From Nostoc sp. TH1S01 (GTDB lineage: Bacteria; Cyanobacteriota; Cyanobacteriia; Cyanobacteriales; Nostocaceae), in NCBI GenBank assembly GCA_018993265.1, contig JAGKSW010000010.1, positions 1 through 64,000 of the forward strand: 64,000 nucleotides of DNA. The letters are read 5' to 3'. The notes under the pieces were generated by a model, which saw only the letters and a list, made by a program, of their open reading frames with translations, ran no database searches and had not been told where the DNA came from. Each line of letters starts with the position of its first letter. Position 1 is the stretch's first letter. A program made the position numbers and the translations under genes. Positions 1-2,759 of the stretch are shown here, piece by piece.

Positions 1-548
1 CACATTATCCTTTAAGTGACACCAAGGGACTTCCTGAATGTGCGACTTATGTAAGAGTTCCAACGATTGCTGCGGCACGGCAAATGAAAGAACGCATTCG
101 TAATTTGACTAATGAAGATGCCCTAGTAGTTGTGTCTAGGGACGATGATCCCAATTCAACTTCTAACTCTAGGTCAGGGCAAGATCCCAGTGAACAGATT
201 GAACAGTTTGCAGCAGAAACTGGACACAGTGCGCGGTCTTGGATCATTGGAGTGGGAATGTTAGGTGAAGGGGTTTCCATCAAACGGCTAAAATATCGCA
301 TTCATGCCACAAATATTCGTGCCATTCTGTCATTTATGCAAGATTTAGGGCGTTTGTTGCGTTGTTTTCCTGAAAATACTCCTGAACCTGTAGAAACACT
401 AATTCCGGCTCATCCACAGTTGATACAGTTAGCTGTCAGTGCCTTGGATGAAATTGCTCATGTAGTAAGGGAAAAAGAAGAAAATGAAGGTAGCAATCTG
501 AACAGCATGATCAAGCAGTCAGAGCTTTTTTCGTCTCAGATGGTATAG
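1..548 (+). pseudogene. SF2 helicase, C-terminal part, cut by window edge and probably frameshifted
   Basis: The reading frame is open from base 3, so the gene begins upstream of the window. The protein carries what look like helicase motif V (GEGVSIKRL, bases about 260-290) and motif VI (QDLGRLLR, about 338-361), as in DEAD/DEAH or restriction-type superfamily 2 helicases. It ends at a TAG at 546-548, just after a run of six T at 526-531. The frame one base back is open from 494 and continues with helicase-tail-like sequence. I infer that a one-base loss in the T run broke a longer gene. A natural stop here is the alternative. The gene sits beside transposition remnants, so it may be transposon cargo. 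Confidence 0.6.
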
Positions 549-1102
549 CGTCCGGGATTGGTAAAGATTTAGCTTTTGTTGACCAAATTCCTAACTTTAT
601 CAAAGAAATCATTGATAACAAGTTGTGGGAGTGTCTTTATGTAGCAAAGGGAGTTGTCACCCCTTACTACTGTCGCTATGTCAAAGCAACAGATTCTGAA
701 AATTTTCGAGCATTTATCACTGCAAAGCGTCCTAATGGGCTAGAAACAAGTGTAGAAACAATAGATCGGGTGCTACAGGCAGACTTAGAAGTAAAACGGA
801 AGTTTCGAGCGATTATTTATGAATCTCGTCAGGGAGAGCGAACTGACTTGTTAGATGAAACTTCTTATAGTCACTATAAGAAGTTAGATAACTCTATTGG
901 AGAAATCCAGCAAGCCCGCATTCGAGCTGCAAACCGTGCAGCAGAAGCCATTCCAGAAATTGCTGAATTACTAGACCGTGGATTAATAGCTATAGATGTT
1001 GCAGCACAACTAGGCCGTGACATAAAAGACCCCGAAAACCTTACAGCAGAAGAACGAGAATATGTAGACAAGCGGGATTTAATCGGAATTCGACTTAGGT
1101 AG
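494..1102 (+). pseudogene. Helicase continuation, closed by an in-frame TAG
   Basis: This frame overlaps the end of the preceding helicase piece. It has no ATG near its beginning; the first plausible start is a GTG or ATG-like codon well inside, at about 623. The protein is soluble, rich in charged residues and resembles the tail of a large helicase. It ends at TAG 1100-1102. Reading through that TAG, the same frame stays open to 1891. The simplest reading is one original gene carrying a frameshift near 530 and a nonsense codon at 1100. No known domain is recognised in this part. Confidence 0.5.
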
Positions 1103-1891
1103 TACATATATACTAACCCAATTCCTGAAGATGAGGACAGGGAGCCGGCTTATAGTCGAGAAATTAATAACTTTGTTAAAGACCAACTTGGGATTAAAGA
1201 CCGTTCCAAGCCTGTGCGAATGGACAATCCCAAAAAAGCTGCTGAGAAACTACTTCAGTTTTATCAGAGAGATAAGCTTCAAGAGTTAATCACGCATTTA
1301 AGGCAGGGTTTAAACGTAAATACTGATAGCCAAGAGCCAGTTAGGGAGCATTCTAATCACCACCAAAATAGCCAAAATTTTTCGGAACTGTCTCTTTATA
1401 AAGATTCTGTCCCTTCTAGTGACATTCAAGACACTAATGGTACGCAAGCGCATAAAAATCAACCTGCCTCTGACGAAGAACAATTAACAACTCAACAAGC
1501 TGAATTGGATGAATGGGTAAGAACAGGAAAATTACCTACGACGCTCTCAAAATTGACATCAGGTTTAGATTCTGATACCAAAACCAACTTACCTCTCTTG
1601 AAACCTGCACCTATCGACAATCGCACATCAGAGTTTGCCGATACTTACAAAATTACGAAGCGTGAAACAACAGAACTGCAAACCCCAGATCCAAATATGG
1701 AACTGACCGCAGATGAACTTGCAGAAAGATTGCAGGTGAAACCAGCTACACTTCGCTCCATCTTTAATAAAAACAAAGAAAAATTTTCTAGATGGACAAA
1801 AAAACACGACCCAGATGGCATTGCTTGGCAGCGCACTGATGTGAAAAAAGGACGCTGTTGGTTGTTTGTTCCTATAAATCAAGCCACCTAG
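1103..1891 (+). pseudogene. Continuation of broken helicase gene, C-terminal HTH-like region
   Basis: This is in the same frame as the preceding piece and separated from it only by TAG 1100-1102. An internal ATG at 1214 would give a 225-residue protein if translated separately. The middle is low in complexity and polar (Ser, Asn, Gln, Thr). The last 60 residues, starting near ELTADELAERLQVKPATLR, look like a small winged-helix or MerR-like DNA-binding fold ending in WLFVPIN. I cannot assign a function. The stop overlaps a 9-bp inverted repeat (1884-1892 with 1904-1912) that could act as a terminator. Confidence 0.45.
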
Positions 1892-1912
1892 TCATCATTA
1901 ATTACTAGGTGG
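1884..1912. terminator. 9-bp inverted repeat between cargo and tns remnant
   Basis: CCACCTAGT at 1884-1892 is the exact reverse complement of ACTAGGTGG at 1904-1912, with an 11-nt loop. It overlaps the stop codon of the broken helicase gene and lies just before the ATG of the tnsA-like remnant at 1918. No T run follows, so termination is only a guess. An operator for the former tns operon is the other possibility. Confidence 0.3.
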
Positions 1913-1917
1913 GATTC

Positions 1918-1998
1918 ATGCTGTCAAAAGCAGAGTTTGAAGCTTGGTGTTATCGCCTTAATGTTTCTCAGCAAACTCAAAGTACAGGAATTTTTTGA
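1918..1998 (+). pseudogene. tnsA-like transposase subunit, first codons only
   Basis: An ATG at 1918 opens a 26-codon frame beginning MLSKAEFEAWCYRLNVSQQT. From memory this resembles the first residues of TnsA-type endonuclease subunits of cyanobacterial Tn7-like and CRISPR-associated transposons. The frame stops at TGA 1996-1998. Sequence from about 1975 on belongs instead, in the next frame, to a TniQ-like protein. This suggests a deletion that removed the rest of tnsA, tnsB, tnsC and the front of tniQ. The match is short, so identification is tentative. Confidence 0.5.
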
Positions 1999-2591
1999 AG
2001 GAAACATATCCGCCTTTGCTCGTATGCTCAAAATTTCCAAAAACAAAGTTTGGATGTGGCAGATCGGGAAAGTTTTGCCAGAACTAAATGTAATTTTAAA
2101 GTTATACGCTTCAGGTGTCTGTGCTTGATTTTTTGACTCAAGACACTGTTAAGGTGGATTCTCTGCACTGTTCTGCTATCCCTAAAAAGCAGACATTAGA
2201 TTGCAGTGCAAACAAACTGGAAGTAAAATTCGATAGCGATCGCGCTCAACAGTTGCTTGGAGATTTGCTTCAAAAGAATGAGCAACCGCTACCCATGACA
2301 GCAGTAGCCAAGCCACTTGGATATTCTAAGCGAGTTCTTTATAGGCATTTCCCGGAGCTATGCCGAGCAATTTCAGCCCACTATATTAAGTATATGAAGG
2401 AATCTCGCGTGAAACGAATTGAACAATGTTGCGAGGAGGTGAAACAGGCTATTCAGCAATTTAACTCTGAAGGTATTTATCCTAGTGAAGCAGCTATTTC
2501 CCAGCTATTGGCTAAACCAGGATGTTTTCGTGACAAGGAAGTTCGCATTGCTCTTAAAGCCGCAAAAAGAGAAATTGGTTTGAACGCATAA
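1970..2591 (+). pseudogene. TniQ/TnsD-like transposon protein, C-terminal remnant with a frameshift
   Basis: Two overlapping frames together read like the C-terminal half of a TniQ/TnsD target-selection protein. The first (to about 2104) contains GNISAFARMLKISKNKVWMW, a helix-turn-helix-like stretch. The second continues from about 2103 as LQVSVLDFLT and runs to the stop at 2589-2591. It contains a second HTH-like unit, AKPLGYSKRVLYRHFPELC. A one-base indel near 2102-2106 would join the two. The N-terminal zinc-finger half of TniQ is absent. TniQ/TnsD proteins choose the insertion site, and many cyanobacterial ones direct insertion next to tRNA genes, which fits the tRNA-Ala 96 bp downstream. 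Confidence 0.65.
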
Positions 2592-2666
2592 CCTTGCCGT
2601 TCTTAATTAGAAGCATAAGCTTGCCGTTGCGGTAAAGTTATGGGTAAAGTCATACAAAAACTGACA
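2586..2666. repeat. Candidate Tn7-like transposon end with direct repeats
   Basis: A 16-bp direct repeat, GCATAA(C/G)CTTGCCGTT, occurs at 2586-2601 and 2613-2628 with one mismatch. GGTAAAGT occurs at about 2631-2638 and 2643-2650. Tn7-type ends carry repeated TnsB-binding sites and finish in ACA; here TGACA ends at 2666. This is 20 bp from the 3' end of tRNA-Ala. The position, right after the TniQ remnant, is what makes the call attractive. The exact boundary is a guess. Confidence 0.35.
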
Positions 2667-2686
2667 ATAAATATTTAATGTAAATA

Positions 2687-2759
2687 TGGAGCTAAGCGGA
2701 TTCGAACCGCTGACCCCCTCAATGCCATTGAGGTGCTCTACCAACTGAGCTATAACCCC
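2687..2759 (-). tRNA. tRNA-Ala (anticodon GGC)
   Basis: The reverse strand folds as a full cloverleaf. The acceptor stem is GGGGTTA with TAGCTCC (two G-U pairs), followed by discriminator A. The anticodon stem CCTCA/TGAGG encloses the loop ATGGCAT, giving anticodon GGC. The T-loop reads GGTTCGAATCC. CCA is not encoded. Its 3' end faces the transposon remnant. Confidence 0.95.

Follow-up and report, generated by a model that had tools for sequence, protein, structure and literature searches.

The window analysed here comprises the first 64,000 nucleotides of one contig (C11:1-64000) in the 7.65 Mb genome of Nostoc sp. TH1S01, which is assembled in 247 contigs, and the contig itself begins at window position 1. 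Its left edge holds remnants of helicase, HTH-protein and Tn7-like transposition genes, followed by a transposon right end and a tRNA-Ala(GGC) gene. The features are as follows, with coordinates of related loci in other genomes (L036, L037 and L038), of another contig of the same genome (C191) and of a sister genome (G161) given where they identify a feature:

1..21: end of a younger, nested Tn7-like element (C191 family), identical at 21/21 positions to both ends of C191:109-5673
22..487, plus strand: remnant of a DEAD/DEAH helicase gene, 82% DNA identity to L037 3172-3637
488..497: scar where ~0.7 kb has been deleted internally (window 487|498 corresponds to L037 3637|4353)
498..1891, plus strand: HTH-protein pseudogene (493 aa in L036), 87% aa identity over residues 34-493
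1918..1981, plus strand: first 21 codons of a TnsA-TnsB fusion gene, 82% aa identity over 22 aa to L036 TnsAB
1981..1982: deletion joint, with 4,547 bp lost relative to L036 in an alignment of the two
1982..2591, plus strand: 3' part of tniQ/tnsD, 84% DNA identity to L036 10685-11360
2587..2652, plus strand: transposon right end with TnsB-site-like repeats and the terminus GGGTAAAGTCA; 2610-2652 matches L038 at 42/43 bases
2653..2686: 34-nt spacer to the tRNA, holding a stub like a type V-K CAST end at 2657-2686 (28/30 bases against G161)
2687..2759, minus strand: tRNA-Ala(GGC), the attachment site (ARAGORN and Rfam)

The first-pass annotation had described an ATG-led frame of about 20 codons running straight into a TniQ/TnsD-like C-terminus. 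Such a frame, MLSKAEFEAWCYRLNVSQQT, does begin at 1918 in frame 1 and reaches a stop after 26 codons, 21 of which belong to tnsAB; downstream of it ISAFARMLKISKNKVWMW is read in frame 2, and KPLGYSKRVLYRHFPELC lies in frame 3 within a 158-aa frame ending at 2591. The two pieces are thus joined directly as DNA, at 1981|1982, but not as a single reading frame, and the region 1918-2591, made up of three frames with stops, is a pseudogene and not a single fused gene. Pfam searches with the short window pieces returned weak HTH matches only and no TnsA or TniQ match; because the TniQ domain proper is deleted from the window copy, relatives were needed for its identification.

The 158-aa piece was used to search 217 genomes of the family, and at least 83 of them contain a match. 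Four of the matches listed are TniQ/TnsD frames that are still open, 462-497 aa long and 75-77% identical to the piece, in agreement with the assignment of a TniQ/TnsD-like C-terminus, and many others are short or broken. The best relative among the matches listed is L036, in Anabaena subtropica FACHB-260 (G210). Window 499-1981 aligns to L036 4667-6137 with 89% identity and window 1982-2652 aligns to L036 10685-11360 with 84%, placing window 1981|1982 at L036 6137|10685; the missing 4,547 bp comprise most of tnsAB, all of tnsC and the beginning of tniQ, and microhomology at the joint amounts to at most one base. The MLSKAEFEAWCYRLNVSQQT piece matches the N-terminus of the 898-aa TnsAB ORF with 82% identity over 22 aa (E 9e-9 when 20 loci are searched), the 182-bp stretch 1800-1981 that includes the tnsAB start has 95% DNA identity to L036, and the window tniQ corresponds to residues ~292-493 of a 495-aa L036 ORF. 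Because both flanks of the joint align to L036 around the missing genes the deletion is real, and the collinear match on both sides supports the earlier proposal that a single internal deletion reaches from near codon 20 of the first tns gene as far as the end of tniQ. The first gene was however taken for a separate tnsA, and in L036 it is a TnsA-TnsB fusion.

The L036 proteins give the assignments that the window pieces cannot. TnsAB (898 aa in one ORF) matches PF08722 and Mu-transpos_C above the cut-off and rve just below it, TnsC (384 aa, TniB/AAA) is encoded in the same operon as tniQ, and TniQ matches PF06527 and, in PADLOC, TniQ_IB (6e-67). The suggested profile searches therefore succeed for TnsA and TniQ with the relative's proteins, but not with the window pieces, which are too short or without the domain. 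Viewed through L036, the element qualifies as a Tn7-like transposon with a TnsAB fusion, of which the window keeps only 21 tnsAB codons and the tniQ 3' part. The observation is real and not due to chance.

Two other readings of the joint have next to no probability. In the first, 1918-2591 is a short functional fused gene; its ATG and upstream context do resemble the tnsAB start of L036, but this is contradicted by the three stop-containing frames, a 5-bp frameshifting deletion at 2100/2101, and the adjoining nonsense-bearing pseudogene, and the joint has no second copy among the 20 loci compared, such that a fused gene kept in other strains is absent from that set. In the second, the joint is an assembly artefact, which we regard as scarcely credible. 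The region is hard to assemble because the contig ends inside an element with additional copies of its end elsewhere in the genome, but the flanks of the joint have decayed independently and, at 84-89% identity, fall short of a perfect match to L036. In addition, L036:2000-6140 matches only C11 and the end of contig C219 in the genome, and the only TniQ matches in this genome are in the window and, at 31%, on C191.

The loss of most of the tns genes is not the only damage. The proposal of a fossil consisting of a tnsA start and a tniQ end holds for both pieces, but the fossil spans window 22 to 2652, longer than first described, and carries more lesions. At the protein level 22-487 is 75% identical to the L036 helicase over residues 283-436 of the latter, an enzyme of 641-642 aa when intact (L036 and L037); the ~0.7-kb deletion took the end of the helicase gene together with the start of the HTH gene, and the HTH pseudogene contains an in-frame nonsense codon at 1100-1102. 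Changes relative to L036 at the three codon positions number 43/19/85 in the HTH gene (~460 sites each) and 30/20/45 in tniQ (~202 sites each), and this third-position excess suggests that the element died late. An independent collapse of a similar element is seen at tRNA-Leu(UAA) in a Nostoc sp. NMS7 MAG (L176; G141:C262:97000-112000), with an in-frame fusion of the helicase and HTH genes and a frameshifted, truncated tnsAB; no tnsC or tniQ match was found at this locus.

The repeat-bearing segment that had been noted beside a tRNA 3' end is the transposon right end, and it is the 3' end of tRNA-Ala(GGC) that faces the fossil. CATAA[CG]CTTGCCG repeats are present at 2587-2599 and 2614-2626, with an inverted copy at 2630-2642. 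The terminus GGGTAAAGTCA recurs in inverted orientation at the left ends of L036 (position 2061, 25/25 bases), L037 (1752, 24/25) and L202 (5416, 22/25), and TGTGACTTTACC forms the inverted ends of all three. Flanking direct repeats are TAGTT at L202 and AACTA at L036, the latter overlapping the end by one base; none was read at L037 and none is visible for the window.

The fossil ends 34 nt from the tRNA-Ala(GGC) gene. We scanned for tRNA genes downstream of 77 TniQ loci, taken among the more than 150 matches listed, and of the window itself. Among 41 loci whose right end could be recognised, 40 have the tRNA end 31-37 nt away (mean 33.2), a count that leaves out all loci without a recognised right end and also L090, where a V-K-like end occupies the position in which the tRNA end was sought. 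These 40 sites are at Leu-UAA (14), Val-GAC (10), Val-UAC (9), Ala-GGC (6, window included), and Val-CAC (1). For CyCAST, homing was measured 30-33 nt downstream of tRNA-Leu, according to PMC10293859. Insertion is thus at a fixed distance downstream of a tRNA gene, as for tRNA-homing TnsD/TniQ proteins, and the spacing supports the earlier designation of tRNA-Ala as the target site.

An initial impression that close relatives are without a tRNA gene was rejected, since their tRNA-Leu(UAA) carries an intron and is missed by ARAGORN run without introns. Rfam identifies a group I intron in 7/7 loci (L036-L042), and ARAGORN with introns labels genes with a common 3' end either Leu(taa) or Ser(aga); we read the Ser(aga) labels as mis-calls. 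Twelve loci beside tRNA-Leu(UAA) (L040-L048, L051, L052, and L054) retain the 3' stub of a tniQ gene together with a right end that is complete to a varying degree; the spacing was measured in 10 of them.

The right end is intact at 42/43 positions relative to L038 whereas tniQ differs at 56/350. It could have been kept because TnsB sites beside the tRNA confer target immunity against new insertions, but we think this very unlikely. Pairs of open relatives also have slowly changing ends (0-1/43, compared with 10-29/350 in tniQ), and L044, L047, L048, L049 and L050 carry 6-9 end changes; with five of the 16 rows compared altered to this degree, there is no general preservation of the ends.

The left side of the fossil is off the window contig. 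Contig C219 ends with, in order, gnd, a terminator, a left end of the fossil's family (TGTGACTTTACCC...), and 84 bases (C219:43398-43481) identical to the tniQ-side end of the C191 element; the names gnd, hisF and pyrE used here are ones that we presume from the look of the ORFs. The C191:109-5673 element, with 5,565 bp between its ends, encodes TnsAB (883 aa), TnsC (379 aa), and TniQ (528 aa). Exact copies of its 22-nt terminus are also present at C198:19383 and C225:690, with a one-mismatch copy at C35:2153, and the C225:690 and C35:2153 copies lead into other sequence. In sister genome G158 gnd, the terminator and tRNA-Ala are directly consecutive. We infer that C219 carries the left flank of the fossil, and that gnd is followed by the left end of the fossil, then by the nested element, the remainder of the fossil and tRNA-Ala. 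A comparison of the C219 flank with the bases 3' of the right end reveals no 5-bp target duplication. The nested element resembles Tn5469 in having tnsAB, tnsC, one tniQ and little else, insofar as a review describes Tn5469.

A third family may have left its mark within the spacer. The 30-nt stub at 2657-2686 matches at 28/30 positions an end that adjoins the same tRNA-Ala in sister genome G161, where a V-K-type gene set (L177; G161:C186:5000-20000) uses the same tRNA-Ala(GGC)/hisF site. Its genes encode an effector (655 aa), TniQ (170 aa), TnsC (306 aa), and TnsB (634 aa), and PADLOC matches V-K models of TniQ, TnsC and TnsB; for the effector the top PADLOC model is Cas12j (5e-236) and the next is Cas12k (4e-235), and judging by the accompanying genes we take it to be Cas12k. 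Type V-K CASTs are a different family from the fossil, with separate TnsB and TnsC, a small TniQ, and a Cas12 effector, which here is found only in the G161 element, whereas the fossil genes are of the TnsAB/TnsD type. At least 24/30 bases of the stub are shared at six of the 11 tRNA-Ala sites compared, including the CGC gene of the window's own genome, and 8-16 bases at the other five. With the fossil, the nested element, and the V-K-like stub, three Tn7-like families seem to have marked one site, and in sister genomes several kinds of element end there. Elsewhere in the window's own genome (L033; C73, 13245-13275) a V-K-like end lies beside tRNA-Ala(CGC); the ~2 kb that separate this tRNA from a pyrE-like gene hold no ORF of 120 aa or longer, and this is possibly another relic.

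The TniQ of the fossil does not belong with those of the other tRNA-Ala elements tested. DNA sequences of the tniQ 3' region from 43 rows, the 40 spacing rows and three more, were placed in a tree that leaves out other tRNA-Ala TniQ loci with different ends; the rows sort almost wholly by tRNA, and the window groups with the Leu-UAA rows, apart from the Ala rows. Its group of 20 rows contains 16 at Leu-UAA, two at Val-UAC, one at Val-GAC, and the window at Ala-GGC, with support of 0.61 when the truncated L053 and L054 are included and 0.80 without both. In a second tree of 34 rows, with nine short or divergent rows dropped, the Leu clade (11 Leu rows, L050 and the window) has support of 100/100 and the grouping of the window with L040 and L050 has 99.9/99; constraining the window to the Ala rows tested is rejected (AU p=0.0006). 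The relics L049, L050 and L053 similarly group with Leu rows yet sit at tRNA-Val. The trnL site of the window's own genome has no right end (score 20/39), in a scoring that a very short stub would escape; among the trnL sites of 11 genus genomes nine score 19-21, one has a clear right end (36/39) and one is doubtful (26/39), and at that of G161 a very short stub is visible by eye.

Because the window TniQ belongs to the tRNA-Leu(UAA) clade, the most plausible reading of the insertion at tRNA-Ala is that the element used a secondary tRNA site, or that there was an attachment-site switch encoded in the lost part of the protein. Some of the TniQ segment that might govern the choice of tRNA is missing, and what is preserved bears no clear tRNA-Ala-clade signature, such that the two are inseparable here. 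It is unlikely that a tRNA-Leu(UAA) element was instead moved to tRNA-Ala by homologous recombination between ends beside different tRNAs, without involvement of its own TniQ. The nesting of the window TniQ in the tRNA-Leu clade fits such a relocation, as do the several kinds of element end at the site in sister genomes, and the right ends of tRNA-Leu, -Val and -Ala rows are alike over the last ~40 bases and could recombine. However, every part from the helicase and HTH gene through the tnsAB start and tniQ to the right end has its match in one and the same set of Leu-clade elements, the spacing is canonical, and the three other Leu-grouping relics are at tRNA-Val. Our literature search found no report of Tn7-like elements with TniQ at tRNA-Ala; for cyanobacterial Tn7-like remnants at tRNA genes it also found none, and the match that it gave, as far as its available text goes, concerned archaea.

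Against PDB sequences, L036 TnsC scores 761 bits with 8fcu_Q and TnsAB 1562 bits with 9bw1_M, both very similar, and TnsD is less close at 415 bits with 8v32_J; we take 8fcu, 9bw1 and 8v32 to be entries for PmcCAST (Tn7744). By these likenesses the core appears to be of the type I-B2 CAST kind, sharing the TnsAB fusion (898 aa in L036) and one large TnsD, and a tRNA attachment site is common to both, as PMC11406308 describes it for that type. It differs in that Cascade I-B genes are unmatched among the five L036 proteins and a small TniQ is unmatched in L036, L037 and L202; L036 and L037 have a helicase-HTH cassette before tnsAB instead, and the window's copy of the element is dead. The type I-D CyCAST (Tn7745), to which we liken the fossil by description, also has a TnsAB fusion and a TnsD homing 30-33 nt from tRNA-Leu (PMC10293859), but no Cascade is seen here. 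PMC11406308 places I-D and I-B2 CASTs in one TnsAB-fusion subfamily whose TnsD proteins have different tRNA targets, and includes in it other unstudied, non-CRISPR targeting systems. Together with the likeness in TnsAB, TnsC and TnsD, this suggests that the fossil is a defunct representative of a known subfamily, in a variant that bears a helicase.

L036 is compact, with 9.3 kb between its ends. Its only ORFs of at least 120 aa are the helicase (Walker A, DEVH), the HTH protein, tnsAB, tnsC and tniQ, to which an antisense RHH gene (104 aa) can be added, and from helicase to tniQ the genes overlap or are less than 30 nt apart; L037 has the same gene set. No cas genes were found among the five L036 proteins using Pfam, NCBIfam, and PADLOC, though the window's element might still have had some in its unread left portion, and the L036 helicase gives only weak, sub-cut-off matches to models of cas-associated helicases. 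The helicase-HTH pair is directly before tnsAB in the fossil, L036 and L037. A small TniQ is located upstream of tnsAB in nine of 11 other elements examined, L185 and L190 being without; it is 329-335 aa long (one is cut to 236) and by eye resembles 8fcu_P. There is no separate small TniQ in L036, L037 or L202. L039 belongs to the Leu clade and has a small TniQ, so the clade is mixed, and the upstream genes of L038 are off its contig.

The HTH protein was found at seven loci in a contig database search, and at six of these the helicase and HTH genes are directly before tnsAB, with tnsAB identity down to 66%; the Prochloron locus is without tnsAB. The match to the HTH protein at L201 and L202 leaves out its N-terminal part, and the L202 element (Cyanothece BG0011) ends near tRNA-Val(GAC). 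A plasmid search with the helicase matched 22 records, of which four regions were inspected. The Planktothrix plasmid has RHH, helicase and HTH genes and no tns genes in the 19 kb read; the other three regions, at 27-30% identity to the helicase, have no annotated tns operon, and transposase genes are annotated near one of them (L193). The cassette is therefore tied to the TnsAB branch yet is also free-standing. A KilA-N-type gene precedes RHH-helicase-HTH in Planktothrix agardhii plasmid p1 (L192 5772-10311), as annotated, and precedes the cassette in the BG0011 element (L202 6160-10038), as read from the ORF.

A structure model of the HTH protein has a mean pLDDT of 42.5 and is confident only in the C-terminal HTH. 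The helicase-HTH pair might be a target selector, a regulator, plasmid-derived cargo, or a means of defence. A larger scheme, which we offer as a doubtful if conceivable one, would make these elements a CRISPR-less I-B2/I-D branch in which the plasmid-type RHH-helicase-HTH set replaces the small TniQ as a second non-CRISPR target selector, for example of plasmids or replication forks, while the tRNA-homing TniQ uses more than one tRNA gene without a visible change in its DNA-reading helices.

We consider it very probable that the locus is a tRNA-homed Tn7-like transposon of the 9-kb class, killed by deletions, a frameshift, a nonsense codon and a nested insertion. The transposon would have encoded the helicase, HTH protein, TnsAB fusion, TnsC, and TniQ/TnsD, and would have homed to the tRNA-Ala(GGC) 3' end; TniQ presumably recognised the tRNA gene, with TnsC and TnsAB inserting the element ~34 nt downstream, right end toward the tRNA. 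It would have been functional until fairly recently. The lesions would then have come in a sequence such as an illegitimate deletion that took 4.5 kb between codon 21 of tnsAB and the HTH region of tniQ, further damage in the form of the 0.7-kb helicase-HTH deletion, 5-bp frameshift and nonsense codon, and insertion of another Tn7-like element in the left part. Of this account, the pieces and their order, the joint, the right end, the spacing and the nested end are shown directly; the targeting role of TniQ, the sequence of the lesions and the placing of C219 at the left flank go beyond what is seen.

Two relatives of the fossil point to compact elements in which the non-transposition genes, helicase and HTH, share an operon with tnsAB. 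Such an operon is a candidate, open to testing, for the kind of non-CRISPR targeting module that PMC11406308 mentions as unstudied in the subfamily. The fossil itself preserves the legible remains of a CAST-family transposon and offers a natural experiment in target choice; the few mismatches, the fossil at tRNA-Ala and the three relics at tRNA-Val, mark sites at which the specificity of homing either slipped or switched.
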